Below, piece after piece: positions 32,152 through 42,562 of a DNA stretch of 64,000 nt. The translations under genes and the position numbers were made by a program. Positions within the stretch are counted from its first letter, which is position 1. Each line of letters opens with the position of its first letter. This DNA comes from Sandaracinus sp. (GTDB lineage Bacteria > Myxococcota_A > Polyangia > Polyangiales > Houyiibacteriaceae). The stretch covers positions 1-64,000 of the forward strand of contig PABA01000235.1 in NCBI GenBank assembly GCA_002699025.1, in the 5' to 3' direction. The notes beneath the pieces are model-generated. The model did not search any database and was not told the origin of the DNA. It saw only the letters and a list, made by a program, of their open reading frames with translations.

Positions 32152-34382
32152 TGCGGGGCGTTCCGATGCGGCCTCGTGGCTCGGTGCGGCGCGGCTCGGT
32201 GCGGCGCGGCTCGGTGCGGCGCGACTCGGTGCGGCGCGGATCGATGCTCCCTCGCCGGTCGCTCGGCGTGGAGGGCGTCCTCGGCGTGCTGGCGCTCGCG
32301 TTCCTCGCGGGGTGCTCGCTGCTGAACGCGCCGGACGAGGACCTGCTCGAGGCGGACGCGGGCATGGACGGCGGCTTCGACGCGGGGGACGGAGGCGACG
32401 CCGGCGACGCGGGGGACGGAGGCGACGCGGGCGATGGAGGGGACGCGGGCGACGCCTGGGTGCCGCCGCCGGAGGACTGCGACAACGGCGTCGACGACGA
32501 CGAGGACGGCCTCGTGGACTGCGAGGACTTCGAGTGCGCCGAGGCGGAGGGCGCGGCCTGCTGCGGCGTGGTCGACACGCCCCTGCTCGCGCTGAGCGCC
32601 TGGCCCCCGGACCTGACGGCGGACTGGAGCTCGAGCCGGCCGGCGGACGACATCTACCCGCGCGTCGACGGCGGGCGCCTCGTGGAGTTCGACGACCCGG
32701 AGCCCTTCGCGGCGGTCTGGGAGGACTGCGTCCCGCTCGCCCTCGGCGCGAGCTTCGAGGCGCGCTTCCGGCCGCTGGGCCCGGACGGGCACGGCTGCGA
32801 GGAGGGCGGGCGCTGCGAGGACTTCGCGGCCTGGGTGCTCAGCCCGGTGGAGGCGCAGCTGGCTGGCGCCCGGCTCCTCGACGAGGTCGCCGTGACCGTC
32901 TTCGCGAACGGCCGGCTCGAGGTCACGCAGGCCGGCGACGTCTTGGCGAGCGAGGCGCTCGAGCCGCTGGCGGTCGGCGACTACGTGATGACGGCGACGC
33001 TCACGCCGACCGTGCGCATGGACGGGCGCGCGGGGCTCCAGGTGGCCGTGGAGGTCGTGAGCTCGCGCGGGGGGGCGCCCGTCTTCGAGTGGGTCGGCGC
33101 GCCCATCGAGCTCGCGAACCTGATCGACGACGCGCTCGGCTGCCGGCAGGTGCCGGGGCTCTTCCTGGCGTTCGAGGGGCGCGGGGACGGAACCGAGGTC
33201 GGCGAGCGGGTGCGCGTGGAGCCGCTCGAGTGCGTGAACCCGAGCCAGTTCGAGCAGACGCTGCGGCCGCTCACGGCGGGGGAGGTCGCGGGGGCGGAGA
33301 CGGCGAGCCTCGGCTTCGAGCCGCCGCCCGGGACGGGCACGGGGATCTCCTGGGCCGACGAGGCGATCCGCGCGCCGACGCTGCTGGGCACCGGCGAGCC
33401 GGGGAGCGAGCAGTGGCACGTGATGGTCGAGGGGACGAACGACCAGCCCGAGCTCGAGCTCAGCGTGCGCGTGGGCTACGCGATCGGGCACGCCTTCGAG
33501 GACGTGGACCGCTGGAACACGGACGAGTGGAGCGACAGCTCGGGCGTGCCGCGGCTCGGGGCGCAGCCGCCCTCCTGCGCCGACATGAGCTGCCCGGGGG
33601 AGCCGCCGGCGACGAGCTATCGCGAGCCCTACCTCTTCGAGACCGAGGACGGGAGCCGCTTCGTCGCGTTCGCCGTGGAGCTCGGGGAGGCGAGCGAGGT
33701 CTTCGGGCTGGCCTACGCGGAGGCGGATGGGCTCGGGCGGATCGCGTCGAGCTTCATGCTGCTCGAGCCGGGCGACGTGGCGGCGCTGAGCGAGGACGGG
33801 GCGAGCTGCCGGTCGCTGCGGGACCCGGCGATCGTGCCGCGGGCGGGGATGGGCGGGCGCTACTGGCTCTTCTTCACCTGCGAGACGGAGGGAGGGTCGA
33901 CGATTCGGGCGCAGGCGCTCCGCTCGAACCTCGGGCCGCTCGAGCCGGACGAGAGCGTGGAGGGCGTGGAGGTGCTGCCCGGCGGGCTCGAGCTCGGGGA
34001 GTTCGCGCGGGACGGGGTGTACGGGCCGGAGCTGATCGTCGACCCGCAGCGGGGCGAGGTGAACCCGGTCTTCCGGCTGTGGTTCCTCGGGCGCTCCAAC
34101 CTGGCGGGCGCGAGCGTGGGGCTGGCGGTCGGTCAGGCGAAGGGGGCGGCGAGCGAGCTGCCGGACTTCCAGGCCTACCCGGCGAACCCGGTGCTCCGGC
34201 CGACCGATCGGGCGCTCCGCTCCTGCGCCGAGTGCACGATCCAGGGCTTCGCGGTCGCGCGGCATCCGGACGACGTGGGGGCGCTGCGCTTCCTCTTCGG
34301 GCTGCGCGTGCCGGAGGCCGATGGGCGGCGCTACGAGCTCCTGCCGCTCGACCAGCCCTGGCGGCCGGAGGCGGCCGAGTGA
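32151..34382 (+). CDS. Cys-rich lipoprotein with propeller-like C-terminus (paralog 1 of 4)
   Basis: The 743-residue protein has an N-terminus with four xSVRR repeats (residues 10-29), then a signal sequence with lipobox LAGC at about residue 55. A DAGDGG-type linker of about 30 residues leads to an acidic Cys module: CDNGVDDDEDGLVDC, CAEAEGAACC. The middle resembles a concanavalin-like lectin fold. The C-terminal half has segments like RDPAIVPRAGMGGRYWLFFTCETEGG and YGPELIVDPQRGEVNPVFRLWFLG, which recall five-bladed propellers of the GH43/GH32 type; no catalytic residues can be assigned. It starts in the PEGA gene stop. ATGs at 32166 and 32244 are alternatives. Confidence 0.65.
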   Translation: MRGVPMRPRGSVRRGSVRRGSVRRDSVRRGSMLPRRSLGVEGVLGVLALAFLAGCSLLNAPDEDLLEADAGMDGGFDAGDGGDAGDAGDGGDAGDGGDAGDAWVPPPEDCDNGVDDDEDGLVDCEDFECAEAEGAACCGVVDTPLLALSAWPPDLTADWSSSRPADDIYPRVDGGRLVEFDDPEPFAAVWEDCVPLALGASFEARFRPLGPDGHGCEEGGRCEDFAAWVLSPVEAQLAGARLLDEVAVTVFANGRLEVTQAGDVLASEALEPLAVGDYVMTATLTPTVRMDGRAGLQVAVEVVSSRGGAPVFEWVGAPIELANLIDDALGCRQVPGLFLAFEGRGDGTEVGERVRVEPLECVNPSQFEQTLRPLTAGEVAGAETASLGFEPPPGTGTGISWADEAIRAPTLLGTGEPGSEQWHVMVEGTNDQPELELSVRVGYAIGHAFEDVDRWNTDEWSDSSGVPRLGAQPPSCADMSCPGEPPATSYREPYLFETEDGSRFVAFAVELGEASEVFGLAYAEADGLGRIASSFMLLEPGDVAALSEDGASCRSLRDPAIVPRAGMGGRYWLFFTCETEGGSTIRAQALRSNLGPLEPDESVEGVEVLPGGLELGEFARDGVYGPELIVDPQRGEVNPVFRLWFLGRSNLAGASVGLAVGQAKGAASELPDFQAYPANPVLRPTDRALRSCAECTIQGFAVARHPDDVGALRFLFGLRVPEADGRRYELLPLDQPWRPEAAE
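32178..32237. repeat. Four 15-bp tandem repeats in a lipoprotein signal region
   Basis: The unit GGCTCGGTGCGGCGC occurs four times (the fourth begins GACTC). It encodes GSVRR and DSVRR in the positively charged n-region, before the hydrophobic part of the signal peptide. The repeat adds two Arg per copy and keeps the frame. Confidence 0.9.
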
Positions 34383-36142
34383 GCGCGGGGGCCCGGGGGG
34401 CGCTCTTCGTCGCCGCGATGCTGGTGGGCTGCGCGGCGTTGGACGAGGGGCCGAGCGGGGCCGGGGGCGATGGGGGGCCCGGGGACCTGGCGCGGGACGG
34501 CGGCGGGGGACTCGCGGACGCGGGGGTGCCGTCGATCGACGCGGGGGCGGCCGAGCCCTCGCCGGGGGTGCCCGCCGATCCGGACCGCTCGGGGGACTTC
34601 TCGGAGGCGCCGCCTTCGGGCGTCGACGGGGCGGGAGACGTCGCCGGGCGGCGCTCTTGCTACGACGGCGCGGACAACGACGGGGAGGGCGGCGAGGACT
34701 GCGAGGACCCGGGCTGCGAGGGGCTGGCGAGCTGCTGCGTGGGCGACGGGGATTGCTGCGGGCCGGACCCGGCGGCGGTGGCGCTCGGGGGGTCGTACGT
34801 CGGCTGCGCGGATGCGGAGAGCTGCCTGCGCGCGGAGGACGTGCCCTTCGGCGAGGGGGTGCGGGGGAGCGCGCGGGGGATCGTGCCGGCGGGGGACGCG
34901 GGGGGCGATGGGGGCTTCGCGTTCGGGGCCTTCGACCTCTCGACGCGGCGGGTGGTGCTGGACGCGGTGATCGATCCGGCGACGGAGTGTGGCGTGGGGT
35001 GCCTCGAGACGCTGGGCGTGGGCGTGGGCGTGGCGGCGCCGCCGAGCGGGTCCGGGCAGGTGGTCTCGGCGTCGGTGGCGCTCGTGTACGCGGGGGCGCG
35101 GGACGAGGTGGGGCTGCAGCTCGGGGATCGGCTCGTGCGGCGGGTGGCGCGGGAGGGGGCGACCGAGTGGGGGCTCGTGCTCCGGCCGACCGGGGCCGTG
35201 GCGCTGACGCGGGGTGGGGTGAGCGTCGTGGAGGTCGCGGGGGCGTTCGCGCCCGGGCCGGCGGTGGGGCTGGTGTACGGGCGGAGCCGGAACCCGGGGG
35301 CCACGGCGCCGGCGCCGGTCGCGCTGGCGTCGCTGGGGGTGGAGACGGAGCTCTGCGACGTGCCGGGGACCTGGCGCGAGCGGCGGGCGCTCGGGCAGAC
35401 CGGGGAGGCGCCGAGCCTGGCGCGGCGGGATGGGGAGACGTGGATCGCGTGGGCCGAGGCGGGGGCGCTGCGCGTGGCGCGGGAGGGCGTCGAGGGGGCG
35501 CTCGAGCGGCTCGAGGGGCCGGTCGTGGACGCGGCCTGGGCGGCCGGGGGCGTCGGGGATCCGGAGCTCTGGCCGGGGGAGGAAGGCTGGGAGCTCTACT
35601 TCACCGCGCGGGGGGCGGACGGGACGTCGGAGATCGGTCACGCGGCGCTCGGGGAGGGGGGCTGGGAGGTCGAGCGGCTCGGGATCGGGGGGGCGGCGCC
35701 GACGGTGGCGGAGGCCGGGGATGGGACGCGCGTCTTGCTGGTGCGCGATGCGGCGGCCTGGCGGGTGTACACGGGGGCCGGGGGCGCGTGGGCGGCGCTC
35801 GGCGGGAGCGACCTCGACGTGGTGACGGCGCCGGCGGAGGACGAGGTGCTCGGCGGGGCGTCCCTGGTGGTGCACGACGGGGCCTGGCAGCTGCATCTGG
35901 CGCGGCGGCGGGGGACGCGCTGGCGGGTGGCGCTCTATGCGTCCGACGAGCTGGTCGCGTGGCGGCCGCTCGGGGTGGGGCTCGAGGGGGACGGCGAGGG
36001 CTTCGACCGGCTGGGGGTGCGGGCCGTGGACGTGTGGGCCGAGGGGCCGCGGCTCGAGGCCGTGTACGTGGGCGACGACGGGCAGGGTGGCGCGGCGCTC
36101 GGGCGGACCTGGCGCCCGGCCACGGACCAGGGGTCGCGCTGA
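34379..36142 (+). CDS. Cys-rich lipoprotein with propeller-like C-terminus (paralog 2 of 4)
   Basis: The 587-residue protein has a signal peptide with lipobox LVGC, a Gly/Asp-rich linker, then the family Cys module SCYDGADNDGEGGEDC...GLASCCVGDGDCC. A conserved middle motif reads YGRSRNPGATA, and the C-terminus has LARRRGTRWRVALYASDELVAWR. The segments GDPELWPGEEGWELYFTARG suggest propeller blades. It shares these motifs with the two downstream paralogs more closely than with the upstream one. The GTG start overlaps the previous stop (GTGA). The DNA is extremely G-rich. Function unknown; a surface binding protein is inferred. Confidence 0.65.
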   Translation: MSAGARGALFVAAMLVGCAALDEGPSGAGGDGGPGDLARDGGGGLADAGVPSIDAGAAEPSPGVPADPDRSGDFSEAPPSGVDGAGDVAGRRSCYDGADNDGEGGEDCEDPGCEGLASCCVGDGDCCGPDPAAVALGGSYVGCADAESCLRAEDVPFGEGVRGSARGIVPAGDAGGDGGFAFGAFDLSTRRVVLDAVIDPATECGVGCLETLGVGVGVAAPPSGSGQVVSASVALVYAGARDEVGLQLGDRLVRRVAREGATEWGLVLRPTGAVALTRGGVSVVEVAGAFAPGPAVGLVYGRSRNPGATAPAPVALASLGVETELCDVPGTWRERRALGQTGEAPSLARRDGETWIAWAEAGALRVAREGVEGALERLEGPVVDAAWAAGGVGDPELWPGEEGWELYFTARGADGTSEIGHAALGEGGWEVERLGIGGAAPTVAEAGDGTRVLLVRDAAAWRVYTGAGGAWAALGGSDLDVVTAPAEDEVLGGASLVVHDGAWQLHLARRRGTRWRVALYASDELVAWRPLGVGLEGDGEGFDRLGVRAVDVWAEGPRLEAVYVGDDGQGGAALGRTWRPATDQGSR

Positions 36143-36829
36143 GAGCTCCCGGCGCGCGGGCCCGAGCTCGTGCTGTCGTGGGTCCCGCCGTGGCTCCGGC
36201 CCTGGGGGACCGGGCCGAGGTCCGTTCGGGCGCGGACGCCGCCCGGGAGTCCTGCGGACGCCGCCCGGGAGTCCTGCGGGCGCCGCCCGGGAGTCCTGCG
36301 GACGCCGCCCGGGAGTCCTGCGGACGCCGCCCGGGAGTCCTGCGGACGCCGCCCGGGAGTCCTGCGGACGCCAGCCCGGGAGTCCTGCGGGCGCCAACTC
36401 GGAGTCCTGCGGACGCCGCCCGGGAGTCCTGCGGACGCCAGCCCGGGAGTCCTGCGGGCGCCAACCCGGAGTCCTGCGGACGCAGTTTCGAGCGGGGCTG
36501 AGATGACGCAGGGTAAGCCACTGGAATTGTTGGATTCACCTTCGAAGCGGGGAGGAGGTGAAGGGCTGGCTGGTATCGTTCGTGATTGTCTCGTTCGGAT
36601 TTGTTGAACGAAGCGGGCGTATGTTCGACGGGTGGGTGAAACGAGATGGCGAGGCGGGGCTCCGGCCCGCGGGCGAGGGCGGATGGGCGCGGGGCCGCCA
36701 GCGCGCGGCCGCGGGAAGGCGCGTTCGGATCGTGGCTGCGCGGATCCGCCCCGGGATGGGCGGGCTGGCACGGCGTGGCACGCTGGGGCGGCCCTCGCCT
36801 CTGGTACGGCGCGTGAATAAGCTACGAGC
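36143..36829. other. 687-nt gap with a 22-bp tandem array and a less GC-rich tail
   Basis: No convincing gene is present. The left half holds the 22-bp array described separately. From about 36500 to 36640 the sequence is visibly less GC-rich (for example GGAATTGTTGGATTC, CGTTCGTGATTGTCTCGTT), which fits a promoter region for the lipoprotein pair downstream. A 107-codon ORF at 36558 lacks family features and is not called. Confidence 0.6.
36231..36485. repeat. 22-bp tandem array, about 11 copies
   Basis: The unit GCCCGGGAGTCCTGCGGACGCC repeats head to tail with a 22-bp period from 36241 (units at 36241, 36263, 36285, 36307, 36329, 36351), then with 1-nt slips and small changes (AACTCGGAGT, AACCCGGAGT) up to about 36485. 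Each unit contains GTCC-TGC-GGAC, a small inverted repeat. The period is two helical turns. There are no spacers. Confidence 0.9.
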
Positions 36830-38608
36830 GTGCGTCTCCTCCTCCCGCTGCTCGCAGTCGCGCTCGGATGCGCCGGCCTGAGCGAGCCCCTCTCCCGCGA
36901 TGACGGCGGAGACGGCGGCGCGTCGCCGGCCGACGCGGGCAGTCCCGTCGAGCAGCAGGACGGGGGGCCGGGCATGGGGCTGGACGCCGGCGCCGGCGCG
37001 GACGCGGGGCCGAGCGTGCCCGCCTTCGAGGGCATCCCCGCCGATCCGGAGCGGTTCCTGGACGGCGCCGCCGAGGACCCGAGCCTCGGCGCCACACCCG
37101 GGGCCGGCCGCGCGACCTGCTACGACGAGCTCGACAACGACGGCTTCGGCGGGCTCGACTGCGCCGTGGATCGCTGCCGGGCCCTCGCCTCCTGCTGCGT
37201 CGACGCGGGCGACTGCTGCGCCCCCATGGGCGCCGAGGCGCCGCTCCCCGCAGAGCTCGTCTTCGACTGCGGCGACGCGCCCCTCGAGAGCTGCCTCGCC
37301 GTCGAGCCCTTCGGCCAGCCGCGGCCCTTCGTGGACGACGCGGCCCTCGCCTTCGGTGGCGACGCCGAGTTCGACAGCGGCCTCCTCGTCGGCGCGCCCG
37401 TGGACCTCCGCACCACGCGCGTCCGCGTGGGCGCCCGCTTCGCGCACGGGGCCTGCGAGGGGAGCTGCCTCGAGAGCGCGGCGATGGGCTTCACGGCGCA
37501 GGCCGCGCTCGACGACGAGACCCATGTGCGGCCCCTGGTGGCGCTCCAGCTCTCGCCCTCCCGCGAGGCGGCCCACGTGCTGGTCGGCGACGCCGTGGTC
37601 GCGCGCCTCCCGCTCGGTGAGGAGGAGGCGCGCTGGGAGCTCGAGCTCCGGCCGACGGGGGAGGCCTTCGTCTGGCGGGACGAGACGCAGCTCGCCCGGG
37701 TCCGCTACGCGACCGTGCGCGAGGCGCGCCTCGTGCTCTGGGGCCACAGTCGCAACCCGGGGGCGACGGACGTCCAGCGCGCCCGCCTGCTCGAGCTCGA
37801 CGCGAGCGCCGAGCGCTGCGGCATGGCCGACGCCTGGGAGGGGCCGAGCGAGCTCGGGCTCGACGCCGTCTCCGAGCCGGCCCGGGTGTCGGTGGTCGAG
37901 GCCGCCGGCGCGCGCTGGATGCTGGTGCTCGGCGAGGGCTCGGGCGCGGACCTCTTCCGCGACGACGCCGCCGTGGAGGCCGCGGCGCTCCCGGAGGGGG
38001 CGAGGGAGGCGACGCTCGCGGCCGGCCCGAGCGGAGAGCTCGAGCTCTGGTACCTCGCCGGCCCGGACGCGCGCCTTCACCGGGCGCCCTGGACCGAGGC
38101 CGAGGGCGCGGCCGGCTGGGGCGAGGCCGAGGACGTGGGCGCGCCGCTCCCGGAAGGTTTCGCGGCGCCGAGCGTGCTCCATCACCGCGGCCACGAGATC
38201 GTCGTCGCCGAGGGGGCCGGCGGCCTCGTGCTCCTCGCGCGCGGCCCGGCGACGATGGGCGCCTGGCGCGACCTCTCGGAGGGCCTCGGGGGCGTGCCCG
38301 CGGGCGCTCGCGCGCCGAGCCTGATCGTCCACGGCGACGCCTACCTCCTCCACTACGGGACCCGCAGCGGCACGCGCTGGTACGTGGGCCTCCTCGCGAG
38401 CGACGAGCTCCTCGCCTGGCGCGACGTGGGCGCGCGGGTCTTCGCCGGCGGCGCGGCCTTCGACGCACGCGGCGCCAGCGCCCCGAGCGTGCTCTCCGAG
38501 GGCGACGCGCTCCGGCTCCACTACGTCGCGCACGACGGCGTCACCCGCCACCTCGCCACGACGCGCCGGGTCGCGCCGCGGGCTGCCCGCTTCGAGGAGG
38601 CCTCGTGA
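36830..38608 (+). CDS. Cys-rich lipoprotein with propeller-like C-terminus (paralog 3 of 4)
   Basis: The 592-residue protein starts with a short signal peptide and a lipobox-like ALGC, then an Asp/Gly-rich linker. The Cys module is TCYDELDNDGFGGLDC...ALASCCVDAGDCC. The middle shows WGHSRNPGATD and the C-terminus LHYGTRSGTRWYVGLLASDELLAWR, in the same order as in paralogs 2 and 4. Blade-like stretches such as GELELWYLAGPDARLHRAPW are present. The GTG at 36830 begins right at the signal peptide; no clear Shine-Dalgarno is seen. Its stop overlaps the next gene (GTGA). Confidence 0.65.
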   Translation: MRLLLPLLAVALGCAGLSEPLSRDDGGDGGASPADAGSPVEQQDGGPGMGLDAGAGADAGPSVPAFEGIPADPERFLDGAAEDPSLGATPGAGRATCYDELDNDGFGGLDCAVDRCRALASCCVDAGDCCAPMGAEAPLPAELVFDCGDAPLESCLAVEPFGQPRPFVDDAALAFGGDAEFDSGLLVGAPVDLRTTRVRVGARFAHGACEGSCLESAAMGFTAQAALDDETHVRPLVALQLSPSREAAHVLVGDAVVARLPLGEEEARWELELRPTGEAFVWRDETQLARVRYATVREARLVLWGHSRNPGATDVQRARLLELDASAERCGMADAWEGPSELGLDAVSEPARVSVVEAAGARWMLVLGEGSGADLFRDDAAVEAAALPEGAREATLAAGPSGELELWYLAGPDARLHRAPWTEAEGAAGWGEAEDVGAPLPEGFAAPSVLHHRGHEIVVAEGAGGLVLLARGPATMGAWRDLSEGLGGVPAGARAPSLIVHGDAYLLHYGTRSGTRWYVGLLASDELLAWRDVGARVFAGGAAFDARGASAPSVLSEGDALRLHYVAHDGVTRHLATTRRVAPRAARFEEAS

Positions 38609-40428
38609 GGCCGACGCTCCTCCTCCTGCTCGCGGTGGCGTTCGGCTGCAGTGACGACGGCGGCGCCGCCGACTCCGACGCGGGCCTGCCGCCGGGCGCC
38701 GACGGTGGCGTCTTCGGGGACGCGGGCCCTTCGCCGGCCGCGGACGCCGGCATGGAGTCGCCTGCCGAGGGGGAGCCCCTGCCGACGGCGCCGGACTACG
38801 ACCTCGGCTCGCGCTTCGAGGGCGCGGACGACGGCGCCGGAGCCGGCTCCTGCTTCGACGGCGAGGACAACGACCGGGGCGTCGACGCGAGCGAGCCCGA
38901 CGGCATCGACTGCGAGGACGCCGACTGCGCGAGCTTGCGGAGCTGCTGCGTCGGACGCGCGACCTGCTGCGAGCCCATCGCGGCGCCCATCGGCTTCGCG
39001 GCGGGCGCGCTCGCGGGCTGCGACGACCTCGAGGCGTGCCTCCCGGAGGCGACCCCCTTCGGAGACCCGGCGCCCTTCCTCGACGGCGACCCGGCGGGGC
39101 TCGGGCTGGCCGGGGACTCGGAGTACGACAGCGGCCTCCACTGGGACGCGACGACGGACCTGCGCACCGAGGCCGTGAGCGTGGAGGCCACCTTCCAGCC
39201 GCCCGGCGACTGCGGCAGCACCTGCCTCGAGAGCGTCGCCTTCGGTTTCACGGAGCAGCAAGGCCTCGCCGATCGGGAGCACGTGGAGCCGCTGGTGGCG
39301 CTCGTGGCGAGCGGCGCGCGCTCGGAGGTGCGGCTCCTCGCCGACGGCGCCGAGATCGCGCGCTGGGACGAGCCGGCGACCGGGCCCGTGCGCTGGACCC
39401 TCCGCCTCGCGCCCACGGGCGCGCTCGAGGTGGAGCGCGAGGACGAGCTCCTGCTCGCGCGCGCCGGGGGCTTCCGGCCCGCCGCGGCGCACCTCGTCGC
39501 CTGGGGCCACAGCCGAAACCCCTCGGCGAGCGACCCGATGGGCGCGCGCCTCGAGGAGCTCGCGGTCACGGTCGAGCGCTGCGACATGCCCCGCGCCTGG
39601 AGCGCTCGCGAGCCGGTCGAGCTCGCGCTCGCCGGCGCCCTGACCTTCGACCCGGCGGACGCGGCGAGCCCGAGCGTCGCGCGCGACCTCGCGGGGCGGC
39701 TCACGCTCGCATTCCTCCACCAGGGCGACCTCTTCGTCGCGAAGCGGCCGAGCGAGGCGGAGCCCGCGCGCTTCCTCCTGACGACGGCCCGCGACGAGCC
39801 GGCGCTCCCGGACCCGGGCAGCGGCCCCGAGCTGGTCGAGGCCGACGACGGCTTCTGGCTCTACACCGCCGGGCCCGAGGGGATCCGCCGACGCACGATG
39901 GACGACGCGGCGGAGGTCTTCGGTGACGCCGAGCCCGTGCTCTCGCCCGTCCCGCTGGGCGCGCTGCAGGTGGACGCGCCGACCGTCGCGGAGGTGCCCG
40001 CGACCACCAGCCGGCCCGAGCGCTGGGCCATGGTCGTGCGCGCGGACGAGACCCGGCTCGTGGCCGTGGCGTCGACGGACGGCCGGAGCTGGCGCTACTG
40101 GAGCGAGGTCCCCGCATCGCTCCTGAACGTGGACGCCATCGGCGAGCCCTCCTTGAGCGTGGGCGGGGGCGTCTATCAGCTGCACGTGGCGGTGCGGCGG
40201 GGCACGCGCTGGCGGGAGGCGCTCTTCGTGAGCGACGAGCTGCTCTACTGGCGCCTGGTCGACGAGGCCGCGCTGGGGCCCGACGCGCTGCCGAGCGATC
40301 GGGTGGGCGTGCGCGCGGGCGACGCGGTGGTCGGCGACGGAGAGGTGGAGGTCTTCCACCTCGGGCTCGACGGCCAGCGCACCACGCTCCAGCGCGCGGT
40401 CCGGCCGCTCCCGACGCCTTCGCTCTGA
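38605..40428 (+). CDS. Cys-rich lipoprotein with propeller-like C-terminus (paralog 4 of 4)
   Basis: The 607-residue protein starts MRPTLLLLLAVAFGC, a compact lipoprotein signal, and has a linker rich in Asp, Gly and Ala. The Cys module is SCFDGEDNDRG...GIDCEDADCASLRSCCVGRATCC. WGHSRNPSASD and LHVAVRRGTRWREALFVSDELLYWR repeat the family motifs. It differs from paralog 3 mainly in linker length and loops. The GTG start overlaps the stop of paralog 3. It is convergent with the pheA-like gene; the 184-nt gap between them holds short TCGCCTGCTCGGCGCT-type repeats. Confidence 0.65.
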   Translation: MRPTLLLLLAVAFGCSDDGGAADSDAGLPPGADGGVFGDAGPSPAADAGMESPAEGEPLPTAPDYDLGSRFEGADDGAGAGSCFDGEDNDRGVDASEPDGIDCEDADCASLRSCCVGRATCCEPIAAPIGFAAGALAGCDDLEACLPEATPFGDPAPFLDGDPAGLGLAGDSEYDSGLHWDATTDLRTEAVSVEATFQPPGDCGSTCLESVAFGFTEQQGLADREHVEPLVALVASGARSEVRLLADGAEIARWDEPATGPVRWTLRLAPTGALEVEREDELLLARAGGFRPAAAHLVAWGHSRNPSASDPMGARLEELAVTVERCDMPRAWSAREPVELALAGALTFDPADAASPSVARDLAGRLTLAFLHQGDLFVAKRPSEAEPARFLLTTARDEPALPDPGSGPELVEADDGFWLYTAGPEGIRRRTMDDAAEVFGDAEPVLSPVPLGALQVDAPTVAEVPATTSRPERWAMVVRADETRLVAVASTDGRSWRYWSEVPASLLNVDAIGEPSLSVGGGVYQLHVAVRRGTRWREALFVSDELLYWRLVDEAALGPDALPSDRVGVRAGDAVVGDGEVEVFHLGLDGQRTTLQRAVRPLPTPSL

Positions 40429-40612: not shown

Positions 40613-42562
40613 CTACTGGATGACGTCGCCGAGCGCCTCGAGCCCCTCGAGCGTGGGGAGCACGACGCCCGCCGCGCCGGCGGCGATGGCGGCCCGCGCG
40701 AGAGCCGCCCGGCCCTCGGGCGCCGAGGAGCCGAGGTCGACCAGCACGGGGAGGGCGGCCCGCGCATGCACCTCGGGGAGCGCCGCCAGGTCGGGCGCGA
40801 GCCGATCGAAGAGCCGCACGCCCGCGTCGAGGAGCACGACCCGCCCGTTGCCGTAGGAGCGCAGCTGCGCCGCCGCCTCGAGCCACTCGTCGAGCGTCGC
40901 CGTGGGCGCCCGCGTGAGCACGACGCCGCAGTCCACCCGGCCCACCTCGCGGAGCAGGGCGCCGTCGTGCATGTGCTGCCCGTCGACGACGAGCAGATCC
41001 GCCCGGACCGCGAGCCGCGCCACGTCCGCCGGGTGGTTGCAGCGCACGGCGAGGGGCAGGCCGGCCGTGGCCGCCGCCGAGGTCAGCACCGCGAGCGCGT
41101 CGGTCTCCCCGGCGCGCTCCCGCGGGTCGAGGTGGCCCGCCCAGAGCGCGTCCGCGCCGCTGCCCCGCGCCCGCCGCGCCGCCGCCTGGGTCGCCGCGAC
41201 GTCGCCGAGCTGCTCCGGCCCCGCGAGGAGGAGCGGGCCCTCGCCGAAGGTCAGCCCGGCCACGCGCGCCGGCCCCTGCACCGGCGAGGGCGCCGGGGTG
41301 ATGCGCCGCCCGCGCCGCGGCCGCGCCGGCTGCGCCTCGTCGCTCGTCCGCGAGGGGTAGCACCCGAGCACGCGCAGATAGCTCGTCTCCGCGGCGAAGG
41401 CGTCGAGCCCCTCGCGCACGGCCGGGTCCGCGAGGTTCCCCTCGAAGTCGAGGTAGAAGCGGTACTCCCAGGGCGTGTTCGGGCGCGGCCGCGACTCGAG
41501 CTTCGTGAGGTTCAGGCCGTGCTCGGCGAGCAGCGCGATGCCCCGCGCCAGCGCGCCCTTCTCGTGCCGCGTCGCGAAGACGAGCGACGTCTTGCAGGGG
41601 ATCCGCGGGTCGAAGCTCTCCGCCTCGCGCGCGACGACCACCATGCGCGTGTAGTTCTCGCGCTGGTCCTGCACGCCGCGCCGCAGGATCGGCAGGCCGT
41701 GCACGCGCGCCGCCTCCTCGCTCGCGATCGCCGCCTGCGAGAGGTCCTGATCCGCCTTCACCTTCGCCACGGCGAGGGCCGTGTCCTCGAAGGCCTCGGC
41801 GTGGACGTGGTCGAGGCTCGCGAGGAAGGCGCCGCACTGGGCGAGCGCGACCGGGTGCGAGTAGACGCGGCGGATGCGCGCGAGGGGCACGTCCTCGAGG
41901 CCGATGAGGCAGTGCTCGACCTTCTGCACCTCCTCGCCGACGAGGTGCAGGTCCATCTCCGCGAGCAGGTCGTAGCTCTCGTTGATCGAGCCCGCCGTCG
42001 TGTTCTCGATGGGCAGGAGCGCGAAGTCGACCTTGCCGTCGCGCACGGCCTCGAGCATGGGCCGGAAGGCCGAGAAGCCCTGGAAGACGGCCTCGCCGCG
42101 GGCCGCGAAGCAGCGCTTGGCCGCGAGGTGGCTGAAGGCGCCCTCGCCGCCCTGGAAGCCGACGACGAGGAGCTTGCCGGCGCGGCTCGGATCGCGGCGC
42201 GTGGCGAGGAGCTCGTGCTGGAGGCGGAGCGAGTGGTCGAGCACCTCGCGGAAGACGCGGGTGACGAAGAAGGGCTCGAGGCCGATGTCGCGGCCGAGGT
42301 CCACGAGGCGACCGAGGAGCGCCTCCTCCCGGCCCGGGTCGCGCACGACCGAGCCGCCGCCGCCCTTGATGCGCGCCACTTCGCGGACGGCCTCCTGCCG
42401 CTCGGCGAGGGCCTCGAGGAGGCGCCGGTCCACGCCATCCAGCTGGCGCCGGAGGGCCTGCAGGGCCTTGGCGGTCGGCGCAGCGGCCTCGTCGGCGGCG
42501 CCCTCTGCGCGCTCTCCCTCGGCGGGGCCCGGGCCCTTCGCCTCGTCGCGGTCGTCCGTCAC
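40613..42562 (-). CDS. pheA: Chorismate mutase / prephenate dehydratase / ACT protein with C-terminal pseudo-DAHP synthase
   Basis: The 649-residue protein makes phenylpyruvate from chorismate. Residues 33-120 are an AroQ chorismate mutase with all E. coli active-site equivalents: R38, R55, K66, D75, R78, E79, S111, Q115. Residues 131-312 are prephenate dehydratase (GFQGGEGAFSHLA, PIENTTAGSINESYDLL, SHPVALAQCGAFL), with a TRM in place of the usual TRF at 305-307. Residues 323-400 are an ACT domain with GAL (336-338) and ESRP (356-359), the Phe-binding motifs. Residues about 440-649 align with type I DAHP synthase but lack its catalytic Cys, Lys and His. The GTG at 42562 follows GAGGGA at 5 nt. 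Confidence 0.88.
   Translation of the reverse strand: MTDDRDEAKGPGPAEGERAEGAADEAAAPTAKALQALRRQLDGVDRRLLEALAERQEAVREVARIKGGGGSVVRDPGREEALLGRLVDLGRDIGLEPFFVTRVFREVLDHSLRLQHELLATRRDPSRAGKLLVVGFQGGEGAFSHLAAKRCFAARGEAVFQGFSAFRPMLEAVRDGKVDFALLPIENTTAGSINESYDLLAEMDLHLVGEEVQKVEHCLIGLEDVPLARIRRVYSHPVALAQCGAFLASLDHVHAEAFEDTALAVAKVKADQDLSQAAIASEEAARVHGLPILRRGVQDQRENYTRMVVVAREAESFDPRIPCKTSLVFATRHEKGALARGIALLAEHGLNLTKLESRPRPNTPWEYRFYLDFEGNLADPAVREGLDAFAAETSYLRVLGCYPSRTSDEAQPARPRRGRRITPAPSPVQGPARVAGLTFGEGPLLLAGPEQLGDVAATQAAARRARGSGADALWAGHLDPRERAGETDALAVLTSAAATAGLPLAVRCNHPADVARLAVRADLLVVDGQHMHDGALLREVGRVDCGVVLTRAPTATLDEWLEAAAQLRSYGNGRVVLLDAGVRLFDRLAPDLAALPEVHARAALPVLVDLGSSAPEGRAALARAAIAAGAAGVVLPTLEGLEALGDVIQ

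Follow-up and report, generated by a model that had tools for sequence, protein, structure and literature searches.

A PheA-type protein of Sandaracinus sp. ends in a DAHP synthase barrel that appears catalytically dead and probably persists as a scaffold for oligomerisation or allostery

The stretch of DNA analysed here (the window) comprises 64,000 nucleotides of contig PABA01000235.1 from a Sandaracinus sp. genome. On its minus strand lies a reading frame with a GTG start at 42562 and a stop codon at 40613-40615, whose product joins chorismate mutase (CM), prephenate dehydratase (PDT) and ACT domains to a C-terminal domain resembling DAHP synthase (DAHPS), as listed in Table 1. At 34300-40428 of the window, on the plus strand, similar proteins were read from at least two neighbouring genes (36830-38608 and 38605-40428) and from the end of the frame 32312-36142; they begin like lipoproteins and carry the motifs CYDxxDND / CFDxEDND, and no Pfam family was found in the two tested. 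Protein-level repeats (PPGSPADAARESCGRRPGVLRT) seen in several frames at 35950-36520 correspond to an array of short DNA repeats that follows a lipoprotein-like gene on its downstream side.

Table 1. Features of the fusion gene, in window positions
Feature	Position	Strand	Remarks
Whole gene, CM - PDT - ACT - presumably dead DAHP-synthase-like barrel (P0002)	40613..42562	minus	649 aa
AroQ chorismate mutase domain, residues 37-116	42215..42454	minus	Pfam CM_2 68.8 bits; catalytic residues intact
Prephenate dehydratase domain, residues 134-314	41621..42163	minus	Pfam PDT 182 bits; N187/S235/Q242/T305 intact
ACT regulatory domain, residues ~334-405, with ESRP Phe-binding motif	41348..41563	minus	strands and helices in full-length model
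Low-confidence linker, residues ~406-431	41270..41347	minus	pLDDT <50 at 406-429; poorly conserved
DAHP-synthase-like (beta/alpha)8 barrel, residues ~432-649	40616..41269	minus	catalytically dead as judged by motif
A447-G-P-E450-Q, replacing AGPC(S/A) (metal-Cys motif)	41210..41224	minus	motif table
L549-T550-R551-A, in place of LKRG	40907..40918	minus	motif table
V608-D-L-G-S-S, replacing DPSH (metal-His motif)	40724..40741	minus	motif table
Best-kept stretch of the barrel, residues 520-579, beta4 to beta6	40826..41005	minus	conservation

By comparison with E. coli PheA, all seven AroQ CM residues were present (R38, R55, K66, D75, R78, E79 and Q115, equivalent to E. coli R11, R28, K39, D48, R51, E52 and Q88). 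The PDT residues aligned with E. coli N160, S208, Q215 and T278 were likewise in place, and the ACT domain has its ESRP motif at 356-359; the Pfam ACT match (334-384) was weak, at 18.1 bits against a cutoff of 27. The first-pass annotation had described these three parts as intact, and with all catalytic and Phe-binding motifs in place residues 1-405 do look like a working P-protein. A second CM-PDT-ACT-like protein of the same genome, about 29% identical, is encoded on the minus strand at C19:85151-86275 (locus L149, C19:84000-87500), adjoining a HisC-like aminotransferase gene. It has lost several CM residues, and its PDT positions N160, S208 and Q215 are now T, G and A, with ESRP kept. Since six relatives (G032, G033, G038, G049, G054 and G057) share these PDT losses (T, A/G, A), together with ETRP or ETRA, this second protein appears to be either a pseudo-prephenate dehydratase that has been conserved or an enzyme acting on a different substrate.

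The relationship of the C-terminus to DAHP synthase, earlier proposed by eye, was borne out by profile searches and predicted structure. The Pfam family DAHP_synth_1 (PF00793) matched residues 488-635 with 49.2 bits (cutoff 25.5), the NCBIfam type I-beta model TIGR01361 matched residues 433-634 (E-value 5e-27, far under its equivalog cutoff), and a phmmer search with the window protein reached solved I-beta DAHP synthases. A domain-only AlphaFold2 model (the window domain plus six relatives; pLDDT 91.7, pTM 0.90) contained all eight strand-helix units, a DAHP synthase barrel and not another fold. When this model was searched with Foldseek, I-beta DAHP synthases ranked first in the PDB, and VIA-align gave a Z of 28.4 and an rmsd of 2.2 Å over 222 residues against the Aeropyrum pernix DAHP synthase 1vs1, followed by KDO8P synthases, so that the predicted structure places the domain among the (beta/alpha)8 barrels of the DAHPS/KDO8PS superfamily. 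The full-length AlphaFold model had a pTM of 0.47, too weak to fix how the barrel is arranged against the other domains.

A table of eight motifs by 58 rows was compiled for the catalytic site. Stand-alone I-beta enzymes and PDT-DAHPS fusions were almost invariant in these motifs (AGPC, KPR(T/S)(S/N)P, G(A/S)RN, LKR, CERG and DPSH, plus the metal Glu and the SD/CD segment). In the window barrel they read AGPE, DPRE--, DGQH, LTRA, LDAG and DLG--SS, with gaps thereafter: none of the four metal ligands (Cys, His, Glu, Asp) is present, the substrate motifs KPRTSP, GARN, KRG and CERG have become DPRE, DGQH, TRA and LDAG, and the C-terminal ALSDG segment, bearing the metal Asp, is missing. The replacements read in the first-pass annotation (Cys to Glu450, the KRG Lys to Thr550, His to Ser) were right, D609-LGSS standing for DPSH, and the suspected loss of the metal Glu was confirmed; every residue named there is gone, but the list was too short, since the metal Asp, the KPRTSP E4P loop, the GARN Arg, CERG and ALSDG are gone as well. 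The DAHPS fold combined with the loss of every metal ligand supports the proposal that the domain is a pseudoenzyme; judged by its residues the barrel would be catalytically dead, and DAHP synthase activity is not expected of it.

A survey of homologs, which had been suggested along with that proposal, recovered CM-PDT-DAHPS in a single frame in 13 Myxococcota genomes, in graded states. The barrel motifs were intact in four fusions (G033, G358, G386 and G370), partly decayed in G004 (Cys to Arg and His to Gly, with KRG and CERG retained), partly lost in G044, partly to largely lost in G032, decayed in G256 (Cys to Ser, E4P loop deleted) and wholly lost in the window protein, G007, G008 and G015, and likewise in G003 as far as its contig extends. 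The window protein belongs to this Myxococcota lineage, being fused in one frame and nested among intact fusions. PDT-DAHPS fusions in which no CM domain was detected, with intact DAHPS motifs, were also recorded at loci L087, L091, L095, L123 (G135, G128, G138, G059) and L124 (G255). At L025 (G034) a CM-PDT protein has a C-terminal extension similar in length to the barrel; this 230-aa tail was considered as a possible further-decayed barrel, but no homology was detectable (hhalign probability 1%).

In the tree of I-beta DAHPS domains the decayed f1/f9 domains grouped together, next to the intact G358/G386, and G256 was placed beside G033. A single origin of all CM-PDT-DAHPS fusions was not rejected (AU p 0.44), whereas a single inactivation covering G256 too was disfavoured (AU p 0.04, borderline and involving a long branch). 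The PDT tree agreed with the DAHPS tree in leaving G256 outside the group that holds the intact G358/G386; on these two grounds, therefore, the fused barrel was likely inactivated independently at least twice. It was kept in six of the 34 genomes of the family, in all six as an open frame without stops; by the PDT tree it would have been lost several times. In G011 and G016, whose CM-PDT parts are 72% and 70% identical to that of the window protein, the chains end a few residues past the ACT domain. Absence in close relatives with identical regulation had been named beforehand as evidence against a regulatory role; the absence part of this is what the sequences of G011 and G016 indicate.

An arrangement likely to represent the state before fusion was found in Acidobacteriota (L043 and L049), where a PDT gene immediately precedes an independent I-beta DAHP synthase gene whose product bears its own N-terminal regulatory domain. 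The less decayed fusions have a short 'YxLASR' segment right before the barrel, which resembles the end of the regulatory domain in genes of the L043/L049 type ('PYKLVSR', 'PFKLASR'). This likeness suggests that the fusion may have been born from an adjacent PDT and DAHPS gene pair, with the ACT domain taking the place of the regulatory domain.

Selection was tested in one pair, the congeners G008 and G015, using NG86 omega. The barrel gave an omega of 0.31 (bootstrap 95% 0.21-0.45), compared with 0.12 for PDT plus ACT and 0.07 for CM; neutral simulations of the barrel at the divergence of this pair, run at three mutational GC levels, had median omegas of 0.92-1.36 and a lowest value of 0.49. 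As no simulated value fell below 0.49, the decayed barrel is, in this one pair, under purifying selection, weaker than that acting on the CM-PDT parts. The barrel evolves faster than CM-PDT. In divergent pairs its omega was 0.5-0.8, but these say less, since the GC bias (93% GC3) compresses dS.

The distribution of conserved positions differed between active and decayed barrels. Identity in the active fusions was 0.79 in the catalytic-face loops and 0.61 in the opposite-face loops; the corresponding values in the decayed group were 0.29 and 0.51 (permutation p 0.0025, with the truncated G003 scored as a mismatch at its missing positions). Conservation has thus shifted away from the catalytic mouth, and identity in the decayed group drops to 0.22 in the beta2-alpha2 loop and 0.07 in the beta7-alpha7 loop. 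W474, L478, A505, D533, R568 and D579 are among the residues that are invariant in decayed barrels and different in active ones, and most decayed-group invariants lie in the stretch 520-579 (M531, D533, L536, L537, R551, W560, A563, A564, R568, G571, N572 and D579).

Some of the conserved positions can be related to a known contact. PDB entry 4c1l is an 'interface mutant' of the Pyrococcus furiosus DAHP synthase, mutated at I181; in the column of I181, which falls in a P(D/E)LAxxP segment at beta6-alpha6, each of the four strongly decayed proteins with sequence there has Leu. The modelled D-D interface of the Porphyromonas gingivalis DAH7PS-CM comprises beta2-alpha2, beta4-alpha4, beta5-alpha5, alpha5 and beta6-alpha6 (PMC12202928). 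Its beta4-alpha4, beta5-alpha5 and alpha5 parts hold many residues kept in the decayed group, and its beta2-alpha2 part is erased in the window barrel, a pattern suggesting that a barrel-barrel contact may be what conservation preserves.

The genomes were also searched for other DAHP synthases. The window genome has one intact type II enzyme (C100:72058-73380), on another contig than the pheA fusion, and it is the apparent only DAHP synthase there: PF00793 detected just the fused barrel and one protein in a kds cluster, which looks like a KDO8P synthase. The same search found in the window genome no active type I-beta DAHP synthase with a matching interface, and a heteromer of the barrel with another I-beta enzyme of that genome was rejected on this account. 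An intact type II enzyme was present in all eight decayed f1/f9 genomes; G256 has none, and carries two other PF00793 proteins above the cutoff. The presence of a type II enzyme as a sufficient cause of decay was likewise rejected: redundancy permits decay and does not force it, because G033 and G370 have the type II enzyme plus an intact fused barrel.

Our preferred reading, which we regard as probable, is that the window protein is a PheA whose DAHPS barrel is left over from a trifunctional enzyme and persists as a scaffold of the Phe branch, serving oligomerisation or allosteric control. The ancestor would have been a CM-PDT-DAHPS fusion with a catalytic type I-beta DAHP synthase as its third enzyme. 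Because the barrel follows the Phe-binding ACT domain in intact fusions, in the position of the small regulatory domain of stand-alone I-beta enzymes, Phe binding could in principle have controlled entry to and exit from the pathway jointly. Where a genome had another DAHP synthase, the barrel would then have lost its metal ligands and substrate motifs and remained foldable, and the present barrel would serve CM-PDT by contacts between barrels, made in the area of beta4-beta6 and of the beta6-alpha6 loop; the scaffold role, the oligomerisation and any effect on the response to Phe are what we infer from the conservation described above. An allosteric module, as proposed in the first-pass annotation, would be compatible with these results. 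Against it stands the fact that the barrel has been dispensable over evolution, surviving in so few genomes of the family after several losses, so that it may be useful at most in some lineages; the purifying selection, moreover, could reflect just a requirement that the barrel fold and do the enzyme no damage. More tentative, and in our judgement somewhat doubtful, is the proposition that the dead barrel has acquired a new regulatory task, either in the assembly of the PheA-type enzyme or as a metabolite sensor that tunes the Phe branch; this may have come about separately on two or more occasions in Myxococcota (f1/f9 and G256) and once more in Shewanella.

The main rival to a scaffold is a passive relic, a functionless leftover that stays foldable and in frame only since a bad tail would harm CM-PDT. 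Such a relic would fit the repeated losses in relatives, the relaxed rates of the barrel relative to the CM-PDT part, the graded steps in which motifs were lost and the missing C-terminal segment of the window barrel; it is nevertheless rather unlikely, given an omega well under the neutral simulations and decayed-group invariants (W474 and D579 among them) that differ from the active residues. The stop just after ACT in G011 and G016 means, furthermore, that a way to shed the barrel existed, and this exit was not used in five other genera. That the barrel offers a binding or catalytic site to another small molecule, for instance as a ligand sensor signalling via ACT, would suit its full fold, the group-specific invariants at strands (W474 and D579, for example) and the common regulation of DAHP synthases through accessory domains (PMC5493349), but conservation in the decayed domain is lowest in the loops of the catalytic mouth, which makes this improbable. 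The docking to 'the real DAHP synthase' that had been envisaged from the sequence, by which CM-PDT would be brought to the active enzyme of the genome in the manner of the Mycobacterium tuberculosis CM-DAHPS complex, is poorly supported and very improbable: the activity of the mycobacterial CM is tied to a type II DAHP synthase in their complex (PMC10520331), giving a functional precedent, and both proteins co-occur in the eight decayed f1/f9 genomes, yet the active enzyme is type II, a family different from that of the I-beta barrel, it is encoded on a different contig, and the other PF00793 protein of the window genome is the KDO8P synthase-like one. A misassembly, frameshift or chance resemblance might be suspected in a draft of 238 contigs, but is hardly credible against a stop-free frame in six family genomes, E-values of 1e-13 to 1e-27 between barrel and family in profile searches, and a confident model.

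The fusions provide, in living relatives, a rare series: at one end an intact trifunctional enzyme, whose single chain unites the first and late steps of aromatic synthesis, then half-dead forms, and at the other end a barrel that is fully dead and yet conserved. They make testable the general question of what a pathway enzyme still does once its chemistry is lost. If the barrel does assemble or tune PheA, catalysis would be separable from quaternary or allosteric function in DAHP synthases, and the entry enzyme of the pathway would have turned into a regulator of the exit enzyme on the same chain. There is also a warning for annotation: Pfam fails to detect the barrel of G008, and the window protein could be credited as a DAHP synthase because its barrel passes the Pfam cutoff. 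PLSDB gave no full-length match, and a scan of viral contigs found nothing. In the open-access literature, subscription journals lying outside the search, no paper on a DAHP synthase pseudoenzyme was found, nor a description of the lineage placement, the intact trifunctional fusions, the intermediates or the selection test.

Among known systems, E. coli PheA (the P-protein) has the same CM, PDT and ACT parts, catalytic residues and ESRP motif, and ends after the ACT domain, where the window protein adds the barrel. The type I-beta DAHP synthases of Thermotoga maritima (1rzm), P. furiosus (1zco) and A. pernix (1vs1) share that barrel at 23-29% identity, whereas in the window barrel every metal ligand and substrate motif has been replaced or deleted and the N-terminal partner is a CM-PDT-ACT unit. 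The DAHPS-CM fusions of Listeria (3nvt), Geobacillus (5j6f) and P. gingivalis also place the first and a later aromatic-pathway enzyme on one chain, but they are without PDT or ACT and their DAHPS part is catalytic; the mycobacterial complex consists of separate chains with an active type II synthase, unlike the single chain of the window protein. The nearest parallel in part order is the Shewanella oneidensis aroQ-pheA with a C-terminal inactive aroA-I-beta, called a 'pseudogene' in the 2005 TyrA family paper (PMC1173090), in which CM-PDT is likewise followed by an inactive I-beta remnant, a comparison made here through the literature statement. That case is one sentence about one gammaproteobacterium, whereas the Myxococcota case comes with intact and intermediate relatives and with evidence of purifying selection.
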